IMG/VR virus record: IMGVR_UViG_3300046697_000138
Location: 1 to 37,437 of that record
DNA: 37,437 bases
From: a virus
Direction: 5' to 3' (one strand)
Part shown: positions 3,615-17,341 of the stretch, one piece after another
How positions within the stretch are numbered: position 1 is the stretch's first letter
Layout: each line of letters opens with the position of its first letter
Position numbers and translations under genes: made by a program
The notes under the pieces: generated by a model
What the model was told of the DNA's origin: nothing
Databases searched by the model: none
Seen by the model: only the letters and a program-made list of their open reading frames with translations

Positions 3615-4523
3615 TTATTTTCCTTCCTTATCGGCTGTTCCGGTCATTTTGCCGGAGAGCCATTTGAGGGTTTTCGCCGCATGGTCGTTAGAAATTTCAC
3701 TCCATGAAGACGCCGCAGCGCGGGTAAGAATTTTTTCGATCTCATCGTCGGTGATTTTCAATACGCCGACAAGCCGCTCAATTTCCTTGACATCTGATTC
3801 GCTGGCAAGGATAATTTGCGTTGCTTCGCTCTCGATGTAATCCTTGCCGTATCTGATTGCGAAGTCGGCATAGTCGAGCGGGAAGGTATCGCTTTCGGGG
3901 AAGCCGATAAGTCGCGACTTGTGCACGGCTGCTGTCGGCGGATCTACCATTCCGCGCCGGAATACCCGCAAACATAAATCTAACTCGTAAACAAGTTTGT
4001 CCCACACGTCGGGGATTTTGCGAACCTCTTCCCGCTGTCCCGTTGTGGGATTCAGCCCCCATTCCGGCGCTTCGTGGGCAATAAACCAGACGTTCATATC
4101 CAGTTTAGATACCCAGTTCACAAGCCGCCGCATTTGCGCAATGGCCGGTTTTTTAGAAGCACCGAAGGCGTCCTTTGCGCCGAGCCTTTCCGCTTCGTTA
4201 GCAATGGCAATCTGATATAATTTGGTAATACTGTCTATTATCACCGTTTTGTATGGGTGCTTCTCGGTTGCCAGTGCTCGGATTTGGTCGATTACCACAT
4301 CAAAATCAAGCGACCCCTCATCCGGTCCGAGGTAAAGGCCACCTGCATTTTTCAGGCGGTCCTGATAGTGTCGCAGGGTTGCGCCTGACTCTGTGTCAAT
4401 CAGGTACGGAGCCGGAAACGATGTGGCGAACCATGTTTTGCCAACGCCGGACGCGCCGAAAATTACACCCTTTGTTTTCCCCGGCTGCACTTCTCCGGGT
4501 AGTTTCCCTTTAATTTTACTCAT
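3615..4523 (-). CDS. Sak4-type RecA-fold ATPase (recombinase)
   Basis: The start at 4523 follows GAGAGGCGG and gives MSKIKGKLPG, better than the longer non-ATG reading. Residues 23-30 (GASGVGKT) are a Walker A motif, LIDTESG follows at 41-47, and TVIIDSITKL (93-102) is a Walker B. This is the pattern of AAA_24/Sak4 single-strand annealing ATPases, shortened RecA relatives used by phages for homologous recombination. At about 302 aa it is of the usual size with an additional helical C-terminus. It is followed directly by the DUF669-like ssDNA-binding gene, the usual partner. Confidence 0.85.
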   Translation of the reverse strand: MSKIKGKLPGEVQPGKTKGVIFGASGVGKTWFATSFPAPYLIDTESGATLRHYQDRLKNAGGLYLGPDEGSLDFDVVIDQIRALATEKHPYKTVIIDSITKLYQIAIANEAERLGAKDAFGASKKPAIAQMRRLVNWVSKLDMNVWFIAHEAPEWGLNPTTGQREEVRKIPDVWDKLVYELDLCLRVFRRGMVDPPTAAVHKSRLIGFPESDTFPLDYADFAIRYGKDYIESEATQIILASESDVKEIERLVGVLKITDDEIEKILTRAAASSWSEISNDHAAKTLKWLSGKMTGTADKEGK

Positions 4524-4537
4524 AATCCCGCCTCTCT

Positions 4538-4741
4538 TTATTCCGTTTGTTGACAGTTTGCAGCACACTTGCCGCTATTCAGCGGAGCGCCGCACTCTGG
4601 GCAATCGGGTGATATTATCTCATCGCAATTAGGACAACCGGGCAATCCACACACAAAACCGTCATCCCCGCAGTGAGCGCGTTCCTGTTCTCTTGCCATT
4701 TCGTTAGCTTCGTTCAGCATATCATCAGGATCGGTTGCCAT
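4538..4741 (-). CDS. Small multi-cysteine zinc-binding protein (67 aa)
   Basis: A 67-aa protein with an acidic helical start (DDMLNEANEMAREQERAH) followed by eight cysteines arranged as C...CGLPGCPNC...CPECGAPL...CAANC, enough for two zinc sites. It lies 14 bp before the Sak4-like gene start. No named family is recognised; a nucleic-acid or protein-binding zinc ribbon is likely. Confidence 0.65.
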   Translation of the reverse strand: MATDPDDMLNEANEMAREQERAHCGDDGFVCGLPGCPNCDEIISPDCPECGAPLNSGKCAANCQQTE

Positions 4742-4752
4742 TTTGATTTCCC

Positions 4753-4893
4753 CTATTCAGTCTCCTCCGGGACGTCGCTATCGTCCCCTGTGTCGTGGGT
4801 TTCCGGATCGTCCTCCGGCACTACGCTCTCCCACCAGAGCGCCGCCGTTGCGTATGCCCGCTTGCTGCACGAGCTGAAGAGTCCGTCCATCAT
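4753..4893 (-). CDS. Small acidic protein (46 aa)
   Basis: Reads MMDGLFSSCSKRAYATAALW then a strongly acidic tail (PEDDPETHDTGDDSDVPEETE). It has an AAGGAAG ribosome site six bases before the first ATG, and that ATG overlaps the stop of the ribbon-helix-helix gene as ATGA. The overlap, spacing and ribosome site are the basis for calling it. The acidic tail resembles DNA-mimic or SSB-tail-like segments, but function is unknown. Confidence 0.55.
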   Translation of the reverse strand: MMDGLFSSCSKRAYATAALWWESVVPEDDPETHDTGDDSDVPEETE

Positions 4894-5039
4894 TTCGCTT
4901 CCTTCGGTATTTTAGGGAGATAGGCTTTAAGTGCCCGCTCAACCAGCGCGCCAAGGTTTCCCGCGCAGGCGGCGTTGTACTTGTCCAATCGCTCCCGGAG
5001 TGCGGAATCAATCCGCACGTGAAGATGCGCCTTTTTCAT
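4890..5039 (-). CDS. Ribbon-helix-helix DNA-binding protein (49 aa)
   Basis: The frame reads MKKAHLHVRIDSALRERLDK followed by YNAACAGNLGALVERALKAY and a short tail. This is the CopG/Arc ribbon-helix-helix pattern: a basic beta strand (AHLHVRID), helix 1 (SALRERLDKYNA), a turn and helix 2 (LGALVERALKAYL). Such dimers bind operator DNA through the paired strands and usually act as small repressors. It has a strong AAAGGAG site, and the gap to the repeat-protein stop is only three bases. It is a candidate regulator of the leftward operon; the palindromes in the control region would be test targets. Confidence 0.75.
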   Translation of the reverse strand: MKKAHLHVRIDSALRERLDKYNAACAGNLGALVERALKAYLPKIPKEAK

Positions 5040-5042
5040 GGT

Positions 5043-6254
5043 TCAATTCTCCTTTGCGTTTCCGTAGAACCGGCAATCCCCGCCCGCCTGAGCGGAGACG
5101 GTGCCGGTTGACGAGTCGAAGAACCGGCAATCCCCGCCCGCCTTAGCGGAGACGGTGCCGGTTGAAGATCCGTAGAACCGGCACTCCCCGCCCGCCTGAG
5201 CGGAGACGGTGCCGGTTGAAGAGTCGAAGAACCAGCACTCCCCGCCCGCCTGAGCGGAGACGGTGCCGGTTGACGATCCGTAGAACCGGCACTCCCCGCC
5301 CGCCTGAGCGGAGACGGTGCCGGTTGAAGAGTCGGAGAACCGGCACTCCCCGCCCGCCTGAGCGGAGACGGTGCCGGTTGACGAGTAGGAGAACCGGCAC
5401 AACGCGCCCGCCTGAGCGGAGACGGTGCCGGTTGAAGATCCGTAGAACCGGCACTCCCCGCCCGCCTGAGCGGAGACGGTGCCGGTTGACGAGTCGAAGA
5501 ACCAGCACAACCCGCCCGCCTGAGCGGAGACGGTGCCGGTTGAAGAGTCGGAGAACCGGCACAACCCGCCCGCCTGAGCGGAGACGGTGCCGGTTGACGA
5601 TCCGAAGAACCAGCACAACCCGCCCGCCTGAGCGGAGACGGTGCCGGTTGAAGAGTCGAAGAACCGGCACTCCCCGCCCGCCTGAGCGGAGACGGTGCCG
5701 GTTGAAGAGTCGAAGAACCGGCACTCCCCGCCCGCCTGAGCGGAGACGGTGCCGGTTGAAGAGTCGAAGAACCGGCACAACCCGCCCGCCTGAGCGGAGA
5801 CGGTGCCGATTGAAGAGTCGGAGAACCAGCACAACCCGCCCGCCTGAGCGGAGACGGTGCCGGTTGAAGAGTCGAAGAACCGGCACTCCCCGCCCGCCAT
5901 ATTCTTAATTGTTAAATGACCACCAAAAACGACGCGGGATATATTTCCGCCGTCGATTTCGTAGTCACCCTCTGTTATGATATGCAGAGCCGCCCATTTT
6001 GGCAGCTCTGCTCGGCAGGCGGATTCCGCCGATGCAGAAGCGTACCAGTCAGGAACAATCTCTTGATCAGTTTTAAAAACCCAGTGTTCAAGCGGTAACG
6101 AATAGACGTCGTTGGGTGGGGATATTTCCGCCCGGACAAATTTAACGCCCGAATCGTCAAGCCCGTTTTCGAGGATAATTTCCTCATGGCTATCGGATTT
6201 TTCCGACCAGAAGACTGCCGACTGGGTGATTATAAAACTCGCCGCATTGCACAT
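5043..6254 (-). CDS. Repeat protein with 15.5 copies of an 18-aa unit
   Basis: Residues 1-118 form a non-repeated head (MCNAASFIITQ..., with FVRAEISPPNDVYSLPLEHWVFKTDQEIVPDWY) that I associate with phage and bacterial proteins carrying variable repeat tails. Residues 120-398 are 18-aa units of the type AGGECRFFDSSTGTVSAQ; SSTGTVSAQ is nearly fixed while unit positions 4 (E/L/D), 6 (R/W), 8 (F/S/Y) and 9 (D/G/Y) vary. Periodic small, aromatic and beta-prone residues suggest a beta-solenoid. No signal peptide is seen, so it is probably cytoplasmic. The function is unknown. Uniform repeats suggest ongoing homogenisation or copy-number change. Confidence 0.8.
   Translation of the reverse strand: MCNAASFIITQSAVFWSEKSDSHEEIILENGLDDSGVKFVRAEISPPNDVYSLPLEHWVFKTDQEIVPDWYASASAESACRAELPKWAALHIITEGDYEIDGGNISRVVFGGHLTIKNMAGGECRFFDSSTGTVSAQAGGLCWFSDSSIGTVSAQAGGLCRFFDSSTGTVSAQAGGECRFFDSSTGTVSAQAGGECRFFDSSTGTVSAQAGGLCWFFGSSTGTVSAQAGGLCRFSDSSTGTVSAQAGGLCWFFDSSTGTVSAQAGGECRFYGSSTGTVSAQAGALCRFSYSSTGTVSAQAGGECRFSDSSTGTVSAQAGGECRFYGSSTGTVSAQAGGECWFFDSSTGTVSAQAGGECRFYGSSTGTVSAKAGGDCRFFDSSTGTVSAQAGGDCRFYGNAKEN
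5061..5897 (-). repeat. 54-bp tandem repeat array, 15.5 units
   Basis: The coding repeat of the preceding protein seen as DNA: 837 bp equals 15.5 units of 54 bp. The GACGGTGCCGGTTGA-type core on the plus strand is almost invariant, while a few codons differ between units. Because 54 is divisible by three and no unit holds a stop, other frames also stay open, including long antisense ones that are not genes. Confidence 0.95.
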
Positions 6255-6257
6255 GGT

Positions 6258-6380
6258 TCAATTCTCCTTTCCCTTCTTAATATATTTCATGGTTGTACCA
6301 ATTGCAACAATTTTTAACATAAAATTGATGCAATATTTTTGCGCTTTGATATAGTTATGAATCTGCGCTTTCCGGTTCAT
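6258..6380 (-). CDS. Small basic protein (40 aa)
   Basis: Reads MNRKAQIHNYIKAQKYCINF then MLKIVAIGTTMKYIKKGKEN. Its ATG overlaps the stop of the upstream gene as ATGA and its stop lies three bases before the repeat-protein ATG, filling a gap exactly. Its last codons double as the AAAGGAG ribosome site of the repeat gene. Lys-rich with one hydrophobic patch. No family is recognised; it may serve mainly for translational coupling. Confidence 0.5.
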   Translation of the reverse strand: MNRKAQIHNYIKAQKYCINFMLKIVAIGTTMKYIKKGKEN

Positions 6381-6814
6381 TCCCAGCCCCGCGTATCGTT
6401 AGTGTTTTCCGGTTCTTCAGGTTTTATAGGAATTTTTTCATATTCTTTCGCCTCTTCGAATCTACCGGAATCGCATAATCGAAAGTGCCGGCTGTAATCG
6501 CTTTCGACCAGCATGCACTGCGTGTGTAAATCTGGTTCGGTGATTTGCACTTCCCGAAACCAGTTGTTTCGGATAAAATCAACCATTTCCGAAATTCGCC
6601 CAAATGGTATCGTATCAAAACTATACCCGAAATGACGATTAATCATAATCAGTGCCCGGCCGCCGGCATCGTCCATGCCATGCCTGACTCCCTCGCCAAT
6701 GATAGCGCGTAGGCCGGTTCGGAACTCGTCCACGTCGGCTTGATTTTCCTTTGAAACAAAATTATTATCGCCTTTAAAATCCCTCAACAACGCTTTGGAA
6801 TCAATAAAGCTCAT
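6377..6814 (-). CDS. Hypothetical protein (145 aa)
   Basis: A 145-aa soluble protein with a mixed alpha/beta pattern, charged N-terminus (KALLRDFKGDNNFVSKENQADVDEF), a central GGRALIMINRHFGYSF strand-like segment and a Glu/Pro-rich tail (KIPIKPEEPENTNDTRGWE). Its start overlaps the replisome-organiser stop by four bases (ATGA), so it is co-translated with that gene and may help replication. No family is recognised. Confidence 0.6.
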   Translation of the reverse strand: MSFIDSKALLRDFKGDNNFVSKENQADVDEFRTGLRAIIGEGVRHGMDDAGGRALIMINRHFGYSFDTIPFGRISEMVDFIRNNWFREVQITEPDLHTQCMLVESDYSRHFRLCDSGRFEEAKEYEKIPIKPEEPENTNDTRGWE

Positions 6815-7713
6815 ATTTTTATACCGGCCCTTTCGAGCAATATTTTCATGGATTCTGGTTCGTGATTTGTCGAGCGCTGTTCCCCGGCGCGTGAATGATT
6901 AATTTCCATTTCGCGGCGCTTTTCAATCACACCAGCAATCCGCTCTTTCTCTTTTTGTTCCTGCCGTACCCTTGCCGCCTCTTCAGGGGTTTGCCTGGCC
7001 TCCCAGGTGCGAATACTTGCCTGCCAGTTTTTCATGGCCGCCTTGGCCGTCCCGACTCGCCAGCCATTTGTTTCGTAATGGTCGAAAAAGCTCTGAGGAT
7101 TGATTAAGTTCCGGCGCGCTTTGCAATAATCTTGCACCCATTCCAGGAGGGGGGGAATAATTTTCGCTTGTGATATAGGGGCGGTCCCCGCCTTTTCCTC
7201 CGGTTCCGATCCGGTTCCGGTGGGCGCACTGCAGGGACCGCCTTTTTCAATGGGGTTAAAATCCTTTTCAGACTCTAAGGCATCCGCGCTATGTGTAGGT
7301 GTTATTATTTCTTTCTTACCTTCTTTAACTTCTTGTATGTTGTTAGTTGCTTGTTGGTTGCCTGTTAGTTGTTTGTTAGTTAGCTTGTTGATTACACTTT
7401 CTACTATTTGGTATTTATCGTAATTACATATAGTTATGATACTAAATTTGTTTGTTGATCTGCGTGTTATTTCTTTTGTAGTGATTAACTTACGGAGACA
7501 AGTACGTAGAGATTGCACGGAAATACCAGTATTTTCAGAAAGACTTTCAAGACCTGTAATCAGTTCTCCGCGATTAATGTCGATTCCGTGATATTTTAAA
7601 GGGTGATATTGAGCTAAAAGAAGTAGTCTGATAAAAAGGGCGGTGGTAAGCGGATCGTTTGCCCACTCCCAGTCGAGCATTTTTCGGTGTAGTTTGATGT
7701 AGCCTTCGGCCAT
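6811..7713 (-). CDS. Replisome organiser-like replication initiation protein
   Basis: From M at 7713 the protein begins MAEGYIKLHRKMLDWEWAND, the signature start of the phage replisome-organiser N-terminal domain. A winged-helix region follows (RGELITGLESLSENTGISVQSLRTCLRKLITTKEITRRSTNKFSIITICNYDKYQ, about residues 50-105), then a linker and a C-terminal domain (WVQDYCKARRNLINPQSFFDHYETNGW) like DnaD/GP-O proteins that recruit the host helicase. The frame stays open upstream; an ATG at 7848 overlaps a short upstream frame as ATGA and would add 45 residues, and a TTG at 7878 is also possible. I chose 7713 because family members start within a few residues of GYIKLHR, though its ribosome site is weak. 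Confidence 0.75.
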   Translation of the reverse strand: MAEGYIKLHRKMLDWEWANDPLTTALFIRLLLLAQYHPLKYHGIDINRGELITGLESLSENTGISVQSLRTCLRKLITTKEITRRSTNKFSIITICNYDKYQIVESVINKLTNKQLTGNQQATNNIQEVKEGKKEIITPTHSADALESEKDFNPIEKGGPCSAPTGTGSEPEEKAGTAPISQAKIIPPLLEWVQDYCKARRNLINPQSFFDHYETNGWRVGTAKAAMKNWQASIRTWEARQTPEEAARVRQEQKEKERIAGVIEKRREMEINHSRAGEQRSTNHEPESMKILLERAGIKI

Positions 7714-7873
7714 TCGGAGAGTCCAGAATAGCGCCAGTGCGCCGGGCGAGTCTTGTGAAAACTCCCGGCGCGACCGAACGTAGTCCGGCCTTTTACTGGC
7801 TGTTAGATATTGGTGTTTTTTGAGATCACAAGACTCATAGGTAATCATAAATATAATTCCGGGAAAAAGTGAA

Positions 7874-7895
7874 TGCAACCTTTTTTTTTCATCGT
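7874..7895 (-). repeat. 22-bp A-rich repeat, copy A
   Basis: On the minus strand: ACGATG, nine A, then GGTTGCA. It matches 8167-8188 with one substitution. Here it sits just upstream of the replisome-organiser frame; its ATG opens a 15-codon frame ending in ATGA at the alternative start 7848. Confidence 0.7.
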
Positions 7896-7904
7896 TCTAA
7901 TCCG

Positions 7905-8342
7905 TTACAAGTGCCTGCGGATTATCTCGTCGATTTCGATCGATATTTCCCGTAGTTTGCGACTCAGGGCATAACAGCCATCTCTCCCCAACTGAGTGCT
8001 TACCCCGATGAGGTGATCACGTGCTTGCCGCAGGTTTTTGCCTGCAAGAGTAATCGTCGCGGATGGATCGGTATTGTATGGTTCTCTTTTATTACCCCTT
8101 TCGGTTCGTCGGTTTTCGGTTGATAATTGCTCTGTCCGTTGCATAATTTTCTCCTTTAGGTTAGGGTGCAACCTTTTTTTTCCATCGTTTGCTTCGTATC
8201 GTTCCTTCAATTCCCGGAACTCCGCGCAAGCCGGTTGATCGTAACTTCCTTGACACGTCGCAACAAGCGGACACCTTATGCATAACCTTATGCATATTTC
8301 CCGGTATGCCATTTGCGGGCGCTCGTTTACTGGGTTGGTCAT
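7905..8342 (-). CDS. Cys-rich helical hypothetical protein (145 aa)
   Basis: Starts behind AAAGGGGAA. The N-terminal 45 residues hold a cysteine cluster (CIRLCIRCPLVATCQ...PACAEF) that could bind zinc or an iron-sulphur cluster, joined by a long charged helix to a C-terminal helical domain (NLRQARDHLIGVSTQLGRDGCYALSRKLREISIEIDEIIRRHL). A strong AAAGGAG site lies inside the frame before MQRTEQ (about 8143), so a shorter C-terminal product of about 79 aa may also be made, or two genes have fused. No family is recognised. Confidence 0.6.
   Translation of the reverse strand: MTNPVNERPQMAYREICIRLCIRCPLVATCQGSYDQPACAEFRELKERYEANDGKKRLHPNLKEKIMQRTEQLSTENRRTERGNKREPYNTDPSATITLAGKNLRQARDHLIGVSTQLGRDGCYALSRKLREISIEIDEIIRRHL
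8167..8188 (-). repeat. 22-bp A-rich repeat, copy B
   Basis: On the minus strand: ACGATGG, eight A, then GGTTGCA; one substitution from copy A at 7874-7895. Here it is in frame inside the preceding gene, coding DGKKRLH, just before the internal AAAGGAG site. Confidence 0.7.
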
Positions 8343-8388
8343 GATTTATTCCCCTTTCGGTTGATAATTATTTTCCCTGTTTAAAATC

Positions 8389-8424
8389 GGCGGGGAGTGC
8401 CCGGATTAACCGCTGCTCCCCGCC
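8389..8424 (-). terminator. Intergenic hairpin, possible terminator
   Basis: A perfect 9-bp stem (GGCGGGGAG / CTCCCCGCC) with an 18-nt loop in the gap between two leftward genes. On the minus strand it is followed by GATTTTAA, a weak T-tract, so partial termination or mRNA-end protection is plausible. On the plus strand it is followed by TTT only. Confidence 0.5.
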
Positions 8425-8448
8425 TTTCGCCCCAGCCTACCGCCAGGG

Positions 8449-8694
8449 TTATTTTGGTTGATAGTGGCTCCGGCCGTCGCAGAAAAAACATGGATGTTCT
8501 GCCGGGTGCAGTGGCCGAGAGTTGCATGTGTCGCACTGTGGGTCAGGGGGGGGACCTACTTTTTCCCTCGTCGCATCCTCGATAAATCGCGCGCGGGACT
8601 TGCTGCCCCGGATTGCGTCTGCTTCGGCGATTACCGCCGGGTGCATGTGGATCAATATCGCGCGCCGGCGCTGGTCAACGGGTAATTTTTTCAT
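8449..8694 (-). CDS. Ribbon-helix-helix protein with C-terminal zinc motif (81 aa)
   Basis: The ATG at 8694 follows AAAGGAAGC and overlaps the previous stop as ATGA; longer readings run through the upstream gene. MKKLPVDQRRRAILIHMHPA then VIAEADAIRGSKSRARFIEDAT is a CopG/Arc-type strand-helix-turn-helix. The tail carries CDTC and CFFC separated by 13 residues, a likely zinc site. This would be a second small DNA-binding regulator in the leftward operon, besides the 49-aa one at 4890-5039. Confidence 0.7.
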   Translation of the reverse strand: MKKLPVDQRRRAILIHMHPAVIAEADAIRGSKSRARFIEDATREKVGPPPDPQCDTCNSRPLHPAEHPCFFCDGRSHYQPK

Positions 8695-8852
8695 GATTTT
8701 GCTTCCTTTTCTGGTGGTTTGATTGTTGCATTTTCCCGCCAAGTGGTGGGATATTTCTGGTAGATAATCCGGTATTTCAGCGCGTTCCGGATACGTTCCT
8801 GCTCGATGCGTTCGAGTTGGTTGACGATAGGACATTGCAGGCAATTTCCCAT
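8691..8852 (-). CDS. Small protein with CxxC motif (53 aa)
   Basis: Reads MGNCLQCPIVNQLERIEQER and a basic helical remainder ending PPEKEAKS. It has a good CTGGAGG ribosome site, and its stop overlaps the next gene's ATG (ATGA). The CLQC pair followed by a helix resembles half a zinc-binding site. No family is recognised. Confidence 0.6.
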   Translation of the reverse strand: MGNCLQCPIVNQLERIEQERIRNALKYRIIYQKYPTTWRENATIKPPEKEAKS

Positions 8853-8871
8853 TTACGCCTCCAGTTAATTG

Positions 8872-9465
8872 TTAAATCAATGTAACCCCGTACTCAATAA
8901 TAGCCCGATACATAAGGTCTCCCGCTACTGCCCCTGCTGCCCCTGCTACCCTTTCGGCGGTCCCTGCTGCCATTGCGGCTGCCCCTGCTACCCTTTCGGC
9001 GGTCCCTGCTGCCCTTGCGGCTGCCACTTCTGCCCCTTCGGCTGCCCCTGCGGCTGCTGCGGCTGCCCCTTCGGCGTCCCATGCGTCGTTCCCTGCTGCC
9101 CTTGCGGCGTCCCATGCGTCGTTCCCTGCTGCCCTTGCGGCGTCTCGATCTGCCTCGGAGTGTGTCACCAGGTAATTTTCTGCGGCCTCAATAGCCAAAT
9201 GTGGCCGGTTGTCTTCAGGGTAGGCCGTCTCGAAAATGTGCAGCACCTGCCTCGCGGCAAAAATCGCGTATCTCCGGCAGTCGTCCTCGTTTAGCAAGTT
9301 TGACAGCAGCCAATTGGCGTAAGGCAAAGTGGTGCTCGGATCGGGGTCGGCGAGCAGCGCCGATACGCACCCCTCCACGGTATTCGGCTGCCCGTGTGAT
9401 AAGTACCATGCCAGCCCGCTTTCGCAGGCTGATTTCTCTATGAGTAGTTCCAAGTTCAAGTGCAT
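8872..9465 (-). CDS. Imm-5-like alanine-rich protein (197 aa)
   Basis: The centre (CRRYAIFAARQVLHIFETAYPEDNRPHLAIEAAENYL, about residues 63-99) matches the conserved part of the Imm-5-like family as I remember it: an aromatic-rich helix, then P-x-D-x-RP and AIEAA. The rest is a string of Ala-rich helical repeats (AARAAGNDAWDAARAAGNDAWDA, GTAERVAGAA) built from near-identical 20-40 bp DNA segments. Immunity proteins of this group are predicted to neutralise toxins; in a phage it could act as an anti-toxin or counter-defence factor, which is inference. It has a clear GAAGGGAAA ribosome site. The antisense Cys-rich frame over the repeats is a shadow. Confidence 0.6.
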   Translation of the reverse strand: MHLNLELLIEKSACESGLAWYLSHGQPNTVEGCVSALLADPDPSTTLPYANWLLSNLLNEDDCRRYAIFAARQVLHIFETAYPEDNRPHLAIEAAENYLVTHSEADRDAARAAGNDAWDAARAAGNDAWDAEGAAAAAAGAAEGAEVAAARAAGTAERVAGAAAMAAGTAERVAGAAGAVAGDLMYRAIIEYGVTLI

Positions 9466-9487
9466 ACGTTTCCCTTCGGTTAATTGT

Positions 9488-10270
9488 TTATATTAATTCC
9501 TTTAATGATTTTGCGGCATAAAGCCCGTTGCCGTTTAATTGCCGTTGCCAAGCGCCATTGGTTGGACACCAGCGGAAGCCATGGTGTTTAAGTATAGTAC
9601 GTATTTCCGGCGAAGGCTTGCCGGGGAAAAAGAACATCACGCGGTTTAATGCCGCGTCTTCCCGGTAGGTATATTTGGCGGTTTGCTCCTCTTTTTCTTC
9701 CCTTGTGTTAATTAAGGAAAGCTCCGCAATGCGTTTTTCCATGCGGCGAATATTTGCGCTGTTATTTGTAAGCGCAAAGCCAGCAAATCCCAGGCCGCCA
9801 AAGCAGTCTGGTTCTACGATTTTCGCCGCGTGCGCTTCGTCTAAAAGTCCAGCGGCAACTATTGCGGCGATTCGTGCGGGGTTATCTTTATTCGCACGGA
9901 TCAATTTGTTAACGGAAATCATAACCGCCTGATTTTTCTTCGCCTTTTCTATTTTTTCCCGCAGTTTTGCAACTGCCGAAGGGTCATCCGAAGAAATCCC
10001 CGCGTAATCCATGCTTTGCGCGCGGCCTTCGTAGTAATCGGCTGTTTTTGCAAGCTTTGCCGATTTTTCATATTTCGAGCTTATCCTTGCCCGATAGTTC
10101 CGGTCGCGACCCTCGCTATGGTGGCCGATAAGAATCGGTTGCCCGAAGGGAATCACGCTTGCCATTTTGTGCGCAGTGTTAAATGCGCTTTCCGATCCCT
10201 CCCGGTTTTTTGCGGCGAGCGTTTCAAACCGTTCCCGCCGTGCCGCTTGTTTTAATTCGTAGGCGTTCAT
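9488..10270 (-). CDS. DUF3560 domain protein (260 aa)
   Basis: The block IPFGQPILIGHHSEGRDRNYRARISSKYEKSAKLAKTADYYEGRA (about residues 40-84) is the DUF3560 signature found in phage and plasmid proteins. The C-terminus (NRVMFFFPGKPSPEIRTILKHHGFRWCPTNGAWQRQL) is the short module common at the end of such proteins. The middle is helical and Ala/Lys-rich. The biochemical role of DUF3560 is not established; the conserved His pair suggests metal binding or catalysis. It has a strong AAGGAG site. Confidence 0.75.
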   Translation of the reverse strand: MNAYELKQAARRERFETLAAKNREGSESAFNTAHKMASVIPFGQPILIGHHSEGRDRNYRARISSKYEKSAKLAKTADYYEGRAQSMDYAGISSDDPSAVAKLREKIEKAKKNQAVMISVNKLIRANKDNPARIAAIVAAGLLDEAHAAKIVEPDCFGGLGFAGFALTNNSANIRRMEKRIAELSLINTREEKEEQTAKYTYREDAALNRVMFFFPGKPSPEIRTILKHHGFRWCPTNGAWQRQLNGNGLYAAKSLKELI

Positions 10271-10311
10271 AACATCTCCTTCTGTTGATTGTCGGTGGTA
10301 TATAGATTATA

Positions 10312-10509
10312 CTACGCTCTATCGAATCCATAATCCTCTAAGAAATTTTTCATGTCATCGACCAGCGCTTGGCGATTCGGATAATAATCTCCGGTCGCTC
10401 GCCCCTCGACCAAAAACCTCCAGCAACCGGGGTCGACCTGGTAATACTCTACCTGGGGGAGCCTGGTTTTATACCGTTTTGTAATTCCCAATGTAATTTT
10501 CCACGACAT
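10312..10509 (-). CDS. Small hypothetical protein (65 aa)
   Basis: The start at 10509 (MSWKITLGITKRYKTRLPQV) is chosen because AAGGAG lies directly before it; an in-frame ATG at 10539 lies within the duplicated leader and would add ten residues. It is a compact alpha/beta protein with RFLVEGRATGDYYPNRQALVDDMKNFLEDYGF. Family unknown. It is expressed from the same leader type as the AAA+ gene, so it may share that regulation. Confidence 0.55.
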   Translation of the reverse strand: MSWKITLGITKRYKTRLPQVEYYQVDPGCWRFLVEGRATGDYYPNRQALVDDMKNFLEDYGFDRA

Positions 10510-10520
10510 TTTTTCTCCTT

Positions 10521-10607
10521 GTTGTTTGTGTTGGTTCATAAAAAGAATGCCTTAATTGGGGCGTCCTTTATGGTTTTATTTCTTAATTGGGGCGTCCTTT
10601 AATCGTA
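10521..10607 (-). repeat. 87-bp duplicated leader, copy 1
   Basis: Matches 12479-12565 at 84 of 87 positions. Inside are two copies of a 20-bp element (10551-10570 and 10582-10601, exact, 31 bp apart) that reads TAAAGGACGCCCCAATTAAG on the minus strand. It lies just upstream of the 65-aa gene, between that gene and the VWA-like gene, so it looks like a promoter/operator or 5' leader. Confidence 0.85.
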
Positions 10608-10612
10608 GTTTT

Positions 10613-11404
10613 TCATCTTTCCGGGTGTGTGTGTTCGTTATCATTAAGCCAATTGGTTGCTGCGTATTCCCCTAAACATTTCCCTTTTTTAATGTGATAC
10701 GCTTCGGGGGGAAGATCGTCTATGTTTTCCGCAGATCCGTGTCCTTCCCTTACATTTTCTCCACAATAGCAAATCGCAGGAATTAAATAAAACCTGAAGA
10801 AAAGGGGAGATGTTGCAAAGGCAATAAGCGAAAGATTTAAAGGCTCATTTGCGGCCTTTATTGTAATGGATATTTCGCACGTATCGGTCTTATTAAATTT
10901 TTTCGAGCAAGTGTATACGATGATTTCGGTTCGGTGTCCTTGATTCTCAAGCGCATCGCACAATTTCACCGCGGCATAAGTTTTATAAAGCATATCCCTT
11001 GCATTTTTGTCCGCCGATTCGCCGAGATTAATATAAATTTGCTTTATTCCTCTTGCATTAATGCCGGTTTTTTTAATACGTTTGATAAAACAGAATTCAT
11101 TGCCTTCAATAAATCTTTCCATATCCATATCGTCTCCGTCGTCGGAAAAGATCGGCACCTTTTTAGCATTGTTGACTAGTTGCCTAAATGCCGGTAGATT
11201 CTGCGCTTGTGCTACAATCGCATCATCCCCGTATTTATGCTCTTCAATATATTCTGCTGTCGCGCCTGCGAAGCGTTTAAATGTCTCGTCATGGGTGATT
11301 TCCATATCAAGGTCAAATCTGTCTTTGTCCTTTAATCCTTTACGACTATACCACAAGGTATAAAAGTCATGAATTGAGTCAAAATTAAGTTTTATGGTTT
11401 TCAT
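10613..11404 (-). CDS. VWA-like partner of the AAA+ ATPase
   Basis: A 263-aa protein beginning at an ATG that overlaps the AAA+ stop (ATGA). Residues 120-166 (IKQIYINLGESADKNARDMLYKTYAAVKLCDALENQGHRTEIIVYT) have the strand-helix-strand layout of a von Willebrand A domain, with the metal-site position degenerate (NLGES instead of DxSxS). A later LNLSLIAFATSPLFFRFYLIPAI continues the fold. MoxR-family AAA+ proteins are typically encoded next to a VWA partner, with which they act as a chaperone-like or remodelling pair (RavA-ViaA, CbbQ-CbbO). By analogy this is the adaptor. The fold call rests on pattern and context. Confidence 0.6.
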   Translation of the reverse strand: MKTIKLNFDSIHDFYTLWYSRKGLKDKDRFDLDMEITHDETFKRFAGATAEYIEEHKYGDDAIVAQAQNLPAFRQLVNNAKKVPIFSDDGDDMDMERFIEGNEFCFIKRIKKTGINARGIKQIYINLGESADKNARDMLYKTYAAVKLCDALENQGHRTEIIVYTCSKKFNKTDTCEISITIKAANEPLNLSLIAFATSPLFFRFYLIPAICYCGENVREGHGSAENIDDLPPEAYHIKKGKCLGEYAATNWLNDNEHTHPER

Positions 11405-12462
11405 GAGAGAAGTTCCTTTTCTTCAGCTGTCCAGTCCTGGGTAATTGCCGCTTTCCAATTGCCGCCATAAGCGTGGATTTTTGCCGCTGCGATTATGGCG
11501 CGTGTGGACGCAATCCGCCTTAAGTTGTGCGCCTGAATTGTTTCTCGCATTTTCCAAACATAGCGGCAAATTTCTTTATTGTAGTTGCAGCCCTCGTATT
11601 TTGTCGAATAATCTACCTGAATACGTCCTCCGCAAAAACGATCCAGCGTTGCAGCGTCCAGTTGGTTATTACCAATGTATAGCCGATCCGCTCCGGTTCC
11701 CAGCGTGTTTGAAGTTGCGATAATGATGCATTTTCTTTCAATTGCGCCGTGGGAAGTTTGCACAATTTTATTAGCAAGTAGGCTATTCGCGACCGCGGCT
11801 ACTGAAGGGTCGAGCATCGTGATTTCATCAAGGACAATTATTCCTGCCAGTCCGATTGCTGCGGAAACTGGTGACGGTTCAACTGTAGGAATTACGCGGC
11901 CCGTAAAATCACGGGCAGAAGTTCCGGCGCTGCACGAAAGAATTGTTATGGGTAGATTGCATATTTTCGCGGTTTCCATACATGACCAGGTTTTTCCGCA
12001 TCCCGCTGGCCCTGAAAGCCAAATATTTTCAATCCCGCATTTAATCAATTTAACGATTGCCGATACAGTTTCGTCATCGTGATTTTCTGCCGCTCCGTTG
12101 GCTGCTGTTGCTGCCTCGCGCGGTGTTTCTGGAGCTGGCAGGTCTTCCGGGGTTGCCGGTTCCGGCTGCGCTGGTTCCGGCTGCGCTGGTCTCTCTGTTC
12201 TCTCTGGTTTCCGTCCGCCGGTCCACTTTTTTTTCAGCCAGGCCTTATGCAAGCTGTCGCCGGTCCAGTCCGGGAAAAACTGCCGGACAAGTTTTATTAT
12301 TGTTGTTTTATCCTCTTCGGATTGTGATTTGCTCCAGTTGAAAAGCACGCTTATTAAGGGGCTGGCTTCCTGTACTGTTGGCGGGGGAATCTGTTCAGGC
12401 TCCCAAAATTTCAAGCCCGTGAAACGATATAAAATGCTCATCTGATTCGGTGTCGCCTGCAT
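11401..12462 (-). CDS. MoxR/AAA_5-like AAA+ ATPase
   Basis: A 353-aa protein. Residues 1-80 are a helical N-domain, 85-125 a Pro/Glu/Ala linker, then the AAA+ core: Walker A GPAGCGKT (151-158), a SAGTSARDFTGRV loop, Walker B IIVLDEI (208-214), sensor 1 IIATSN (247-252) and the DAATLDRFCGGRIQVDY segment typical of AAA_5/CbbQ proteins. ATP hydrolysis probably remodels a protein target together with the VWA-like protein translated from the overlapping next gene. GGGAG precedes the ATG, and the 87-bp duplicated leader lies directly upstream, suggesting co-regulation with 10312-10509. Confidence 0.8.
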   Translation of the reverse strand: MQATPNQMSILYRFTGLKFWEPEQIPPPTVQEASPLISVLFNWSKSQSEEDKTTIIKLVRQFFPDWTGDSLHKAWLKKKWTGGRKPERTERPAQPEPAQPEPATPEDLPAPETPREAATAANGAAENHDDETVSAIVKLIKCGIENIWLSGPAGCGKTWSCMETAKICNLPITILSCSAGTSARDFTGRVIPTVEPSPVSAAIGLAGIIVLDEITMLDPSVAAVANSLLANKIVQTSHGAIERKCIIIATSNTLGTGADRLYIGNNQLDAATLDRFCGGRIQVDYSTKYEGCNYNKEICRYVWKMRETIQAHNLRRIASTRAIIAAAKIHAYGGNWKAAITQDWTAEEKELLS

Positions 12463-12565: not shown

Positions 12566-12616
12566 ATAGTTATAACGGGCGCAAGCGTTGTTAGTTACTG
12601 CTTTGGCTCTCTTCAT
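12557..12616 (-). CDS. Possible 19-aa peptide
   Basis: Reads MKRAKAVTNNACARYNYYD. Its ATG overlaps the stop of the degraded secreted-protein frame (ATGA) and is preceded by the recurrent CAACAGGGAGATGGATC leader used by two other genes nearby. The start resembles that of the 62-aa protein at 13923-14111 (MTRARAIRRA), so it may be a truncated relative. Coding is uncertain. Confidence 0.3.
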   Translation of the reverse strand: MKRAKAVTNNACARYNYYD

Positions 12617-13072
12617 GATCCATCTCCCTGTTGTTGATTGTTGTTGAGGTATTCGCTGCCGAGCCGCTTGACCTCCTGGCCCTTGAGATTGAATATCCCG
12701 AGGCTGATGTGAAAGCTCTCCGGGAGCGCCATCTCGATTTTTACCTGGTTGCCGATAATAACCTCGTCAAACTGAGGAATAAGAAGCGGATCGGTTTTTA
12801 TGTTTCTTGGGTCTTTTACTCCGGTGAGCGGGGTTACGACCGGCGGCCCGCGCCTGGACAAACAGCGACGCCGCGTTAACCGAGGTTAAACGGATCAGGA
12901 CCGGGAAATTCTTCTGGGTGGTCGAAATATTCGCCCCGGTTGCCGAAGTATTGAGGATAATGCTGGTACTATATTTCCATGTCGTCAGCGTGTCCTGGGC
13001 ATTCAGTGAAAAAGTGATGCCGAGCATCGCCGCCATTCCGGCTAATGCCGGACCTATTTTTTTGTAATGCAT
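12613..13072 (-). pseudogene. Frameshifted, internally deleted secreted protein (DUF2341-like)
   Basis: From the ATG at 13070-13072, behind AAAGGAGGAGT, a signal peptide (MHYKKIGPALAGMAAMLGIT then FSLNAQ) leads into TLTTWKYSTSIILNTSATG and NFPVLIRLTSVNA, the start of DUF2341-type domains of exported proteins. The frame then turns into unlikely basic sequence and stops at 12767. A second frame, overlapping from 12861, ends with NQVKIEMALPESFHISLGIF then NLKGQEVKRL, like the C-terminal sorting or beta-sandwich tails of large secreted proteins. So two ends of a long host-like protein are joined with the middle lost and a frameshift. It is probably a decayed cargo gene of host origin; I associate this style with Fibrobacterota-like bacteria. 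Confidence 0.55.
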
Positions 13073-13202
13073 ACTCCTCCTTTATTAGTGTTGGTTGCCG
13101 TTTGCAGGTGAAAAATTACCGTTGTTTTGACCTGTTAATGAAGCACTTTCGATAGTTCCACCTCCCCAAGTCAAAAAAAAGGCTAGTGCTCATTGGTGAT
13201 GT

Positions 13203-13268
13203 TTGGTCTCTTCAGTCCCGGCGCTACCGGGAGACCGGGCGCGAGCCCGGTTTCGACCTGTGTTTACG
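13203..13268 (-). repeat. Double-hairpin element, copy 1
   Basis: A 66-bp unit, one mismatch from copy 2. It forms two adjacent perfect stems: ACCGGGC/GCCCGGT with a 4-nt loop (13234-13251) and TCCCGG/CCGGGA with a 5-nt loop (13216-13232). It covers the stop codon region of the 64-aa gene upstream on this strand and continues downstream. There is no T-tract, so it is more likely an mRNA-stabilising or REP-like element than a terminator. Confidence 0.75.
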
Positions 13269-13458: not shown

Positions 13459-13484
13459 GATCCATCTCCCTGTTATTGGTGGTG

Positions 13485-13550
13485 TTGGTCTCTTCAGTCC
13501 CGGCGCTACCGGGAGACCGGGCGCGAGCCCGGTTTCGACCTCTGTTTACG
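13485..13550 (-). repeat. Double-hairpin element, copy 2
   Basis: 65 of 66 positions identical to copy 1 with both stems intact. It lies 9 bp past the stop of the second tandem paralogue and upstream of the first, so it was probably duplicated together with the gene. A further near-perfect hairpin (CGGCCGGA/TCCGGTCG, one G-T pair) encloses that gene's stop codon. Confidence 0.75.
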
Positions 13551-13558
13551 ACCGGAGA

Positions 13559-13765
13559 TTATTCCGGCCGTAAAGGATTCAAATTATCGGGATCAATTTC
13601 TCGTGCGGCATCCCATGCCGCGCCCGCGGAATTGAAATCGCCGAGTGGGATGCAGTCGGCGGCGCTCGCCTCCCAATCCTCTGGGAGATCCTCAATTTCC
13701 TCGGCGGTTAAAACATCCCGCCAGCTACTGCTATTCCATGATTTTGGACTCAAATAATATTTCAT
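13559..13765 (-). CDS. Small acidic protein, tandem paralogue 2 (68 aa)
   Basis: The start at 13765 (MKYYLSPKSWNSSSWRDVLT) is chosen over a longer reading by homology with its tandem copy and by the CAGGGAGATGATC leader before it. It differs mainly in the middle (AEEIEDLPEDWEASAADCIPL). The pair shares gene, leader and the double-hairpin element, so the whole cassette of about 280 bp is duplicated. Function is unknown. Confidence 0.7.
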   Translation of the reverse strand: MKYYLSPKSWNSSSWRDVLTAEEIEDLPEDWEASAADCIPLGDFNSAGAAWDAAREIDPDNLNPLRPE

Positions 13766-13794
13766 GATCATCTCCCTGTTGTTGATTGTTGTTG

Positions 13795-13913
13795 ATTGTA
13801 TGAATCCCACGAATGTCGATCAAGAAAGAACATTCCACCAATCACTGACGCCGATATCTTTGCACCAAATTCCACTGCCGCCCCGGTTTCACCGGGAGAC
13901 CGGACTCGCGCCC
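13795..13913 (-). mobile_element. Transposase fragment (IS1182/IS5-like), degraded
   Basis: The minus-strand frame through this gap reads GETGAAVEFGAKISASVIGG then MFFLDRHSWDSYN, which resembles the conserved GK-G-x-x-VEFGAK...LDRLSWDAYNE segment of IS1182-type DDE transposases as I remember it. Only about 40 codons remain, with no start or catalytic residues. Upstream the same frame runs into the third double-hairpin copy. It marks a past insertion or recombination junction. Confidence 0.45.
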
Positions 13914-13924
13914 GGTTTCGACCT
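13881..13924 (-). repeat. Double-hairpin element, diverged copy 3
   Basis: Shares the order of two stems with copies 1 and 2 but with sequence changes: CCCGGT/ACCGGG with a TTC loop (13882-13896) and ACCGG/CCGGT with a longer loop (13899-13916). The stems remain although loops differ. It abuts the stop codon of the 62-aa gene. Confidence 0.55.
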
Positions 13925-14111
13925 ATACGGCGGGGCATCCTATTCCGTGCCCCGCGACGTACTCCGCAACTTTTTTCGCATCAACATTGTGATGGTGATG
14001 ACCATTACAACACTCAAAATCCACCCCCGCCGTTCCGACGGCGGCGTGGAAATCTCTGTCGTACGCGTTTAGCATCCTGACAGCCCTTCTTATTGCTCTT
14101 GCTCTCGTCAT
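13923..14111 (-). CDS. Small basic His/Cys-rich protein (62 aa)
   Basis: The first gene of the leftward run, behind AAAGGGGAGGG. It begins MTRARAIRRAVRMLNAYDRD, a basic helix, then FECCNGHHHHNVDAKKVAEYV with a two-Cys/four-His cluster likely to bind metal. Being promoter-proximal, it is probably made first and abundantly. No family is recognised. Confidence 0.6.
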   Translation of the reverse strand: MTRARAIRRAVRMLNAYDRDFHAAVGTAGVDFECCNGHHHHNVDAKKVAEYVAGHGIGCPAV

Positions 14112-14178
14112 GATAATCCCTCCCCTTTGATTGTTTTGGGGCTGCCCCTGCGGCTGCCCTGATAGATTACATATATAC

Positions 14179-14194
14179 GCAATAGGCGTGCCAA
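14179..14194 (-). promoter_or_regulatory. Sigma-54 (RpoN)-type promoter
   Basis: The minus strand reads TTGGCACGCCTATTGC, matching the -24/-12 consensus TGGCACG-N4-TTGC with GG and GC exactly ten bases apart. The start site would be near 14167, about 55 bp before the first leftward ATG. No other site of this quality was noticed in the window. It would place the leftward genes under sigma-54 and an enhancer-binding activator, presumably of the host. Confidence 0.7.
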
Positions 14195-14278
14195 TCCATA
14201 CATATTAATACGATGCCCTAATTTCGCAGATTTAGCCAATTATTCGGCATGCCTTTTGCTATCGGCAGCCATCTATAA

Positions 14279-14325
14279 CCAAAACGTTAAAAAGTCACGT
14301 CAAAAGTACACCAAAACGTTAAAAA
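14279..14325 (-). promoter_or_regulatory. Two spaced repeats, candidate activator (UAS) sites
   Basis: CCAAAACGTTAAAAA occurs exactly at 14279-14293 and 14311-14325, start-to-start 32 bp (about three helical turns), each centred on AACGTT. They lie about 110-160 bp upstream of the predicted sigma-54 start, the usual distance for enhancer-binding-protein sites. Confidence 0.55.
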
Positions 14326-14434
14326 CACTTGCTATCGTGATATGCGCGGATGGACAGTATAATAAATCGCCGTTTTATCTGCAATTAAATCGCCTGTCCA
14401 ACATAATTCCTCATCTGATAATGGATTGCGCCAC

Positions 14435-14443
14435 TTATCCACG
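14435..14443 (+). promoter_or_regulatory. DnaA-box-like site in candidate origin region
   Basis: TTATCCACG differs by one base from the DnaA consensus TTATCCACA. It is the only near match seen in the control region; TTATCAACT near 14754 is weaker. With nearby repeats and the AT-rich stretch around 14760-14930 it supports, but does not prove, a replication origin. Confidence 0.35.
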
Positions 14444-14457
14444 CAAAATATCCAAAT

Positions 14458-14492
14458 TACAGTACTGATTAAATACCTACAGTACTACTGTA
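14458..14492. promoter_or_regulatory. Candidate operator: palindrome plus half site
   Basis: TACAGTACTACTGTA (14478-14492) is a perfect 7-1-7 palindrome, and an extra TACAGTA half site begins exactly 20 bp (two helical turns) before it at 14458. Such helically phased half sites are typical of dimeric repressors; the two ribbon-helix-helix proteins encoded here are candidate binders. Confidence 0.5.
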
Positions 14493-14642
14493 ATACCTGT
14501 TCTACGGTATTCCCACCGCCATTTATTCCCCCGCGGCCATGGTCCACCCGCCAATACTATCGCATATACTATATAGATCGTCTGTCGCCAGCTCGCGGAT
14601 CGATCGGGAATAGTACGACTCTTGTCTAATCAAGTGGATGCC

Positions 14643-14690
14643 GTACGTAATAGCGTACGCATCATTACGTACGTAATAGCGTACGCATCA
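14643..14690. repeat. Tandem 22-bp repeats with internal palindrome
   Basis: Two exact 22-bp copies (14643-14664 and 14669-14690, period 26 bp), each holding GTACGTAATAGCGTAC, an inverted repeat of GTACG around TAATAG. Between them lies a further TACGTACGTA palindrome. The dense set of CGTAC half sites suggests iterons or an operator array in the divergent control region. Confidence 0.7.
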
Positions 14691-14708
14691 CTGGTCAATG
14701 AGAGTAGA

Positions 14709-14727
14709 GGAGGGGGACCCTCCTTTT
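14709..14727 (+). terminator. Short plus-strand terminator-like hairpin
   Basis: GGAGGG and CCCTCC form a 6-bp stem around GGA, followed by TTTT. The T-tract is short and no plus-strand gene is seen upstream, so it may block stray rightward transcription or be incidental. Confidence 0.4.
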
Positions 14728-15089
14728 CATTTCAATACGCTTTTTGTGTCCTGTTATCAACTGCACTATGTCTATATATCGTCGAGTCAATCACACAATA
14801 ACCAATGTTTGTAATGCTTTTGGTTGATTCTGTATTGATTGTAGATAGTTTACATAATGGTTATTTAACGACATTCTTTATAATGACATTCTTTATATAA
14901 AATATTAATCAGTACAATCAGTTGATTATGACCGGCGCCAGGGGGGATAGGCGGGAATCGTGGGGGGGGAGTGGGTAAAGATGCTTATATATGCCATTCG
15001 TAGGCGTTGAATTAATGGGTTTTATAGGCTGATTAAGATTATTTGTATGGGGATAATGGCGGTAATTAGATTTGATAGGTAGATAAGCG
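14728..15089. other. Gene-free AT-rich stretch with 13-bp tandem repeat
   Basis: No open frame here has a plausible ribosome site. The first 200 bp are AT-rich and contain GACATTCTTTATA twice (14870-14882 and 14885-14897, 15 bp apart), the kind of short direct repeat found in duplex-unwinding elements. The rest turns G-rich on the plus strand. Function is unproven; origin or regulatory DNA is likely. Confidence 0.45.
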
Positions 15090-15361
15090 AACCGGAGCTT
15101 AGAATGGCCGGTGGGTGTTCCGAACTGAGCGATTGAGTTCAGGCCGATTAGGTAGGTGTAGAGTGGTGACTGGTGAAGCCTTCCGTGGCAAGGGCGACGG
15201 AGAAGTGAGGGGTTACTGGTCTTCGGGAGAGGGTTACTGAGTCTGCATCATCCGTTCACGGCGTTGTGGTGCGGGGTTAGTAATCCAGGGATCTTTCTCT
15301 CGGTATTTTAAGGAAGTGGCTCTGTAATTTGGCGGGGTCGGTTATCCTTAAAATCTTAAGG
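15090..15361 (+). ncRNA. Candidate structured RNA or long leader
   Basis: This gene-free, purine-rich plus-strand stretch has several nested complementarities: ACCGG/CCGGT (15090-15111), GAACT/AGTTC (15122-15140), a nested set in which GGTTACT (15232) pairs with AGTAATCC (15279, one bulge), GCATCA (15245) with TGGTGC (15267, one wobble) and CCG/CGG around a TTCA loop (15252-15261), then CCTTAA/TTAAGG around AATC (15346-15361). It matches no RNA class I recognise. It ends 72 bp before the zinc-ribbon gene, so it could be that gene's leader or a separate RNA. Confidence 0.35.
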
Positions 15362-15433
15362 GGGAGGGGGGTTCTGTTGGTTAAAAGTGGGGTTACGTCA
15401 AAGGCATGACAGTTCTAAAAGGTGAGGAGTGTT

Positions 15434-15607
15434 ATGAAGTGTCCTGTTTGTAGGAAGCACCGTTTGAGGCATCGTGAAAATCCTTTGGACTGGTTCGATC
15501 CTAAGGCCGCTGACCCAACCAAGCGGGTGAAGCAGACAATTAAGATGGAGTGCCCGAAGTGCGGATTTCTGACGTTTGAAATACTTCGGTCTGAGGATAA
15601 AAAATAA
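15434..15607 (+). CDS. Zinc-ribbon protein (57 aa)
   Basis: The first rightward gene. The start at 15434 (MKCPVCRKHRLRHRENPLDW) follows GTGAGGAG; a GTG four codons earlier overlaps that site and is less likely. CPVC near the N-terminus and CPKCGF near the C-terminus make a classical zinc ribbon with a basic face. Its position directly before the packaging and virion operon suggests a regulator of late transcription or a DNA-binding accessory; this is inferred from context only. Confidence 0.65.
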   Translation: MKCPVCRKHRLRHRENPLDWFDPKAADPTKRVKQTIKMECPKCGFLTFEILRSEDKK

Positions 15608-15610
15608 TAC

Positions 15611-15639
15611 TTGCATTTCATTATGGCGTGATATATAAT
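15611..15639 (+). promoter_or_regulatory. Sigma-70-type promoter for the virion operon
   Basis: TTGCAT (15611-15616), a 17-bp spacer, and a consensus -10 TATAAT (15634-15639). The -35 matches TTGACA at only three positions. It would start transcription near 15646, giving a leader of about 100 nt before the terminase ATG. Confidence 0.5.
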
Positions 15640-15748
15640 CATGTTGTGTAGTAAGAAAATTGAATAGCGGTTAAACAGAAAATTGCAATACCCATCTGCG
15701 GGCAAGGCGGATGGTTCCTGAGTTCAACGTCGTGAGGACGTCGAGTCG

Positions 15749-17341
15749 ATGGAAGCAACGCTTCAAAAGCGTAAGCCGGGGCGGCCTTTCGGGGCCGTTA
15801 CCGGTGGGAATTTACCTGCCGAGACTCAATTCTCCAAGTCACAGTTTACCCGTAGCGGCGATGCCGTCCAGTTTCAAATTCCCATAATTCCGTCGATGTT
15901 GTGGCTCGGTGAGGCCGCCAGGTATAAGGTTGGCTGGGGCGGTCGCGCCTCCGGCAAAACCATGAATGCCATAAATGAGCTGATTATCCGAGCGATGTCG
16001 AAAGATACTCGGATACTCTGCGCCAGGCAGGTCATGGAGACGATCAAGGATAGTACCTATGCCGTAATCGTAGATCAGATCGCGGTGCTTGGCCTTTCCC
16101 CGTATTTTGATATTACGGGTGCGGAAATTCGCTGCAAAATAAATAAGAGTTATTTCATCTTCAAGGGTCTGACGGCGGCGAAGAAAGATAAGACGGCGCT
16201 CAAGGCATGGCAGGGAATTGATATTTGTTTCCTGGACGAAGCCGAAGACCTGATTGAAGATTATTGGAATATCCTGTGGCCGACAATCAGGAAGAATGGT
16301 TCGGAGATATGGATATTTTTTAATACCGGTACCGAAGACGATTTTGTTTATAAATACTTCGTCGTGAATACCCCTACCAATGTAAAATGCCTTGTAAAAC
16401 GACTTTTTTACTACAATAACCCCTGCCTGAGTGAAACCATTCTACAGTCGATTGAAAGTTGTAGAATCGACGAACCGGAAGTCTATAAACATTATTGGCT
16501 CGGTGATCCGGCCGCAACGGGTTCGGTGGTCTATCCGACGTTCAAAAGAGAAGCACATATCCATGGGTATTCGTACTCGGACATGGAATACATATTTGAA
16601 AATGGCATGCTTTTTTGTGCCATCGACCCGCATAAGGTTTATTATCCGGCAGTGCTATGGGGCGCTAAGGTCCAGACCGGGAATAATGAATTCGATTATA
16701 TCATCTATAACGAATTCCCACTTGGCCGGACCATGTTTAATAAGTTGTATCACGAATACCGGCACACAAGCCCATGCACCTATAATCTCCGGCAACTAAG
16801 CGATGTATTTAAAATCCTTGATTGCACCGTCCAGACCATTAATGGAGATTTCAAGCGGAAAGCGGATAAGATTATTCGCGGCGTCGATCCCTATTATGCT
16901 ACCGGACCAGGCGGTAAGGACTGGTCGGCGAATACCAGGGGAATCACCATTGAATGGGCGCAACCAGAAAACGGCGGTCTGTTCTGGAACATGCCCGAAC
17001 GCGAAGACGTGAAAGACGGCATGGACAAAATAAAGCAACTCATGCTTTATAATCCAAACAATCCAATAGATTCAATTAATTCACCGCATTTATATATTAT
17101 GCCGCACTGCCTGAATGCCATCGATACCCTGCAATTTCATCGGTACGATTTTGAGAATTTGCGGCAAGACGAAAAGAGAAAGTGTTTCTCCGATACACTT
17201 AGAATATTGATAGCCCTCATGGCAAAAACGCCATTTATGTCCCCGGTCATCGAGAGAGAGAAGAAAAAAGAACAGTTAAAACCGTTAATGGGAAATATGG
17301 GACATCTGTTTTTTTCAACACGGCGGAAACAGCCAAAATGA
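15749..17341 (+). CDS. terL: Terminase large subunit
   Basis: The 530-aa DNA-packaging motor. The ATPase domain shows Walker A GGRASGKT (64-71), Walker B ICFLDEAED (159-167) and the coupling motif FFNTGTEDD (190-198), followed by FYYNNPCLS and the HYWLGDPAATGSVVYP linker. The nuclease domain begins LFCAIDPHK with acidic D293, as in Terminase_3-type large subunits. It cuts concatemeric DNA and pumps it into proheads through the portal. The leader hairpin ACGTC-GTGAG-GACGT just before the ATG places the GAGG ribosome sequence in or next to the loop. Its small-subunit candidate is about 19 kb downstream. Confidence 0.92.
   Translation: MEATLQKRKPGRPFGAVTGGNLPAETQFSKSQFTRSGDAVQFQIPIIPSMLWLGEAARYKVGWGGRASGKTMNAINELIIRAMSKDTRILCARQVMETIKDSTYAVIVDQIAVLGLSPYFDITGAEIRCKINKSYFIFKGLTAAKKDKTALKAWQGIDICFLDEAEDLIEDYWNILWPTIRKNGSEIWIFFNTGTEDDFVYKYFVVNTPTNVKCLVKRLFYYNNPCLSETILQSIESCRIDEPEVYKHYWLGDPAATGSVVYPTFKREAHIHGYSYSDMEYIFENGMLFCAIDPHKVYYPAVLWGAKVQTGNNEFDYIIYNEFPLGRTMFNKLYHEYRHTSPCTYNLRQLSDVFKILDCTVQTINGDFKRKADKIIRGVDPYYATGPGGKDWSANTRGITIEWAQPENGGLFWNMPEREDVKDGMDKIKQLMLYNPNNPIDSINSPHLYIMPHCLNAIDTLQFHRYDFENLRQDEKRKCFSDTLRILIALMAKTPFMSPVIEREKKKEQLKPLMGNMGHLFFSTRRKQPK

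Follow-up and report, generated by a model that had tools for sequence, protein, structure and literature searches.

The DNA analysed here, a 37.4-kb virus record of an uncultured phage taken at its full length and called the window below, contains two modules. One, for replication and recombination, runs leftward from about 14111 to 422; the other, which is structural, runs rightward and has a large terminase at 15749 and an SU10-type portal and capsid. A gap separates the two modules, and it is within this gap that the putative sigma-54-type promoter lies. The features of this region and of the leftward module are as follows:

14178..14194, minus strand: sigma-54-type -24/-12 promoter element (predicted), TTGGCACGCCTATTGCG; 12 of 13 consensus positions, the best site in the window
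14244..14260, plus strand: second, divergent sigma-54-like site, TCGGCATGCCTTTTGCT; 11 of 13 positions, the next best in the window, and possibly due to chance
14278..14293: exact 16-bp repeat ACCAAAACGTTAAAAA, copy 1, near -119; possible activator site
14310..14325: 16-bp repeat ACCAAAACGTTAAAAA, copy 2, near -151; possible activator site
13923..14111, minus strand: first leftward gene (ORF with a ribosome site), 62 aa, of no known family
13559..13768, minus strand: second leftward gene; starting at an internal ATG, it encodes about 70 aa
13264..13458, minus strand: third leftward gene, 64 aa (ORF and paralogue comparison)
11401..12462, minus strand: AAA_5 ATPase (Pfam PF07728, E 1.6e-16)
3615..11404, minus strand: remaining core replication and recombination genes (DUF7192, primase-like, DnaD-like helicase loader, Sak4-like)

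Elsewhere in the window, a 403-aa protein (5043-6254, minus strand) is built on 54-bp (18-aa) units, about 92% alike, repeated in a long array. Ahead of the rightward module, the plus strand of 14930-15420 is G-rich, without recognised genes and without an Rfam match, and the GC skew reaches 0.27 in 15001-16000.

The bacterial sigma-54 (RpoN) promoter consensus is TGGCAC-N5-TTGC (e.g. PMC12316311). In the phage element, GG falls at 14192/14191 and GC at 14180/14179, giving the exact GG-N10-GC spacing, and the sole miss against YTGGCACGN4TTGCW is the last W. Transcription from this element is predicted to start at about 14167, 56 bp ahead of the ATG at 14111, which is preceded by a good ribosome site, AAGGGGAGGGATTATCATG. 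The preliminary description of this DNA, which had reported a near-consensus minus-strand element about 55 bp before the first leftward gene, was thus accurate on both counts.

Sites of this quality are rare. When one mismatch to YTGGCACGN4TTGC was allowed, the window contained a single match, with zero mismatches, against 0.45 expected in shuffles. In Markov simulations, a score of at least 12 of 13 arose with P = 0.14 over the whole window, P = 0.004 in the 1.6 kb of gap before the terminase and, in 14112-15421, P = 0.0003 on this strand or 0.0013 on either strand; the preliminary description had sought anything unusual, so these values should be read with some latitude for the number of motifs that might have drawn attention. 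The whole-window figure favours a chance resemblance, with another, unrecognised promoter driving the leftward module. The values within the gap (0.0003-0.004) argue against this, as do eight unrelated phage genomes (360 kb), in which we found no 12/13 sites but only 11/13 ones.

The early promoters of most phages are of the sigma-70 type, and a sigma-70-like pair, TTGGCA-17-TGTAAT, overlaps the element on the same strand, matching at 10 of 12 hexamer positions and being the best such pair in 14100-14420. The element might then be an ordinary sigma-70 promoter with a -35 that merely resembles a -24 element. However, the -10 has G rather than the nearly essential A at its second position, which places it outside the pattern TTGACA-(16-18)-TATAAT with A at that position. 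Furthermore, the corresponding sites in related phages (see below) are followed by no matching -10, whereas their TTGC is kept. We therefore regard a sigma-70 promoter as unlikely.

Capsid searches yielded four related records, with about 60-64% capsid identity, and a search with the AAA_5 ATPase yielded a fifth. Capsid and portal alignments added one extra fragment, which starts inside the portal gene and does not include the gap. Searching with the terminase, the primase or the portal singly gave no close relatives. The gap upstream of the terminase is sequenced in only two relatives (capsid 60-64% identical), and each has a 12/13 site in it, on the minus strand as in the phage:

L105 1377-1393, minus strand: 12/13 site, TTGGCAGGATTATTGCT
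L132 9425-9441, minus strand: 12/13 site, TTGGCATGTTCTTTGCT

The second of these is the only match of 11 or more in that 42-kb relative. The sequences flanking the sites in the phage and its relatives gave no useful alignment, and that the motif is kept where the surrounding DNA cannot be aligned speaks for a function. Taken together, the presence of comparable sites in this gap in both distant relatives suggests that the promoter is real. The placement of these sites relative to genes is poor, which would be more in keeping with chance: the gap site of G169 and the end of a 78-aa rightward ORF overlap, and that of G170 is separated from the first leftward gene by 1.3 kb and two rightward ORFs. 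As neither site is directly before leftward genes, the sites may drive different genes, or some may be fortuitous. Indeed, G169 has another 12/13 site inside a gene, showing that chance sites do occur. Weighing this against recurrence in both relatives and the rarity of the motif in the gap and in other phages, we consider a purely accidental match in the phage improbable. The preliminary description had named loss of GG/GC and repeats from close relatives as evidence against its reading. Half of this is seen: GG and GC are found in both testable relatives, and the upstream 16-bp repeats are missing.

What, then, is the host? The leftward module contains, at 12613-13072 on the minus strand, the remnant of a Fibrobacterota secreted-protein gene, consisting of an N-terminal piece and then a C-terminal piece in another frame. 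The remnant has 66% protein identity, and 76% DNA identity over 192 bp, to genes of the Fibrobacterota metagenome-assembled genome (MAG) bog_1184, and all 14 loci found to match it are from Fibrobacterota, so the phage probably infects a member of this phylum. A search of 168 Fibrobacterota genomes for prophage relatives gave no capsid match and only distant terminase and primase-like matches.

RpoN was present in all six Fibrobacterota genomes examined for it, and matches to the activator-domain family numbered 12-27 per genome, a count that includes weak matches and perhaps other AAA proteins. The sigma-54 consensus occurs in 145 of the 168 genomes, and 88 times in 59 soil-type genomes against 22 for the reversed pattern. 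In bog_1184 itself, near-consensus sites lie 42-45 bp ahead of thioredoxin and flagellin genes (L028, L044; gene names read from the translations), and both have G after TTGC, as does the phage site. One-mismatch sites in bog_1184 show no genome-wide enrichment (45 versus 47 for the reversed pattern), so the comparison with the host rests on the phylum-wide exact sites and a few well-placed examples. Given its rarity by chance, the use of such promoters in the phylum to which the host probably belongs and the same-strand sites in relatives, we conclude that the element at 14178-14194 is probably a functional sigma-54 promoter ahead of the leftward module, as the preliminary description had proposed.

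Such a promoter would need an activator. No sigma-54 activation domain was detected in the phage proteins run against Pfam, a set that took in part of the small ORFs, and the phage AAA_5 ATPase matched only AAA_5 and AAA; a phage-encoded activator was accordingly dropped as a candidate. If the promoter is real, its activator is therefore probably the host's.

The 16-bp repeats are a possible place for an activator to bind. The preliminary description had noted two exact repeats three turns apart and taken them for enhancer sites. The first part is borne out: the two copies are identical over 16 bp and 32 bp apart, about three turns, and both their position at about -119/-151 and their phasing are as activator sites show. 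The second part fared less well, and an activator-binding function, which we infer from placement, is possible but not likely. The only dyad in the repeat is of 6 bp (AACGTT), whereas the host thioredoxin promoter region has clear TGTTGCA/TGCAACA dyads. There is no further exact copy in the window, and none was found in the relatives. In the 168 Fibrobacterota genomes the repeat pair had 2 matches, with no enrichment over the reversed control, and the idea that it is a common host activator site was abandoned. Since the repeats are less activator-like than the thioredoxin dyads, and unenriched in host-phylum genomes, they could equally be repressor or replication sites. The presence of several repeat families within the gap, including the palindrome TACAGTACTACTGTA, fits such a role, and we think it probable, whatever the promoter. 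The other direct repeats and palindromes of the gap, at 14458-14497 and 14642-14690, comprise this palindrome and two copies of CGTACGTAATAGCGTACGCATCA and are possible operators.

The transcript predicted from 14167 would also contain sequences resembling hammerhead ribozymes, which sit between its first small genes:

13484-13540 and 13201-13258, minus strand: two intact-looking type II hammerhead copies (Rfam match)
about 13870-13923, minus strand: third hammerhead copy, with the CUGANGA part lost

The two intact-looking copies score 28-29 bits against the Rfam type II family, below its curated cut-off of 37, with E values of 0.0016 and 0.0025 when 1 kb was searched and of 0.056 and 0.091 over the whole window. 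In both, the fold is the three-way junction expected of a hammerhead: a 4-bp stem II, then GAA, stem III, C, stem I and CUGAAGA. The seventh position of the hammerhead core may vary. The second and third leftward genes, which are 67% identical paralogues, are each followed by a hammerhead copy and so constitute a duplicated gene-plus-ribozyme unit. No hammerheads were found in the relatives, and a hammerhead DNA pattern gave no match among viral contigs. Their location between small genes resembles tandem arrangements described in PMC3088659.

The results presented above are consistent with a model, which we favour, whereby a host-type sigma-54 promoter serves the leftward replication module of the phage. 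Host RNA polymerase with RpoN would wait as a closed complex on 14178-14194. An ATP-driven host activator, bound upstream and possibly at the 16-bp repeats, would reach this complex via DNA looping and remodel it, and only then would the complex open. Transcription would proceed leftward from near 14167 through the three small genes and then the replication and recombination genes. In this scheme the use of RpoN, the identity of the host, the activator, the start site and the timing are all features that we infer. More tentatively still, a lineage of Fibrobacterota phages may have placed its replication module under the control of host RpoN and an activator of the host, with replication awaiting a physiological signal from the host, and sigma-54 sites arranged back to back may govern the two arms of the genome. 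The nitrogen, stress or envelope signals named in the preliminary description would be speculative candidates. If this is correct, a factor that depends on an activated host regulator to begin transcription would gate phage replication, and infection would be tied directly to the state of the host, in a phylum for which few genetic tools exist.

In the open-licence literature, a weak guide to absence, we found no phage with an operon of its own shown to be sigma-54-driven. A related case is the phage shock (psp) operon of E. coli, which depends on sigma-54 and PspF according to work cited in PMC3844500. On that account psp likewise ties sigma-54 to phage infection, but there it is host genes that answer infection, whereas here RpoN would control genes of the phage itself. 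Compared with bacterial sigma-54 promoters in general, the phage site is alike in its -24/-12 element, its spacing, its distance from the gene and the upstream repeats at enhancer distance, and differs in lying in a phage, as the putative driver of phage replication genes. The thioredoxin and flagellin promoters of bog_1184 likewise have near-consensus sites; unlike the phage site they belong to host genes, and the dyads upstream of the thioredoxin promoter differ from the phage repeats.
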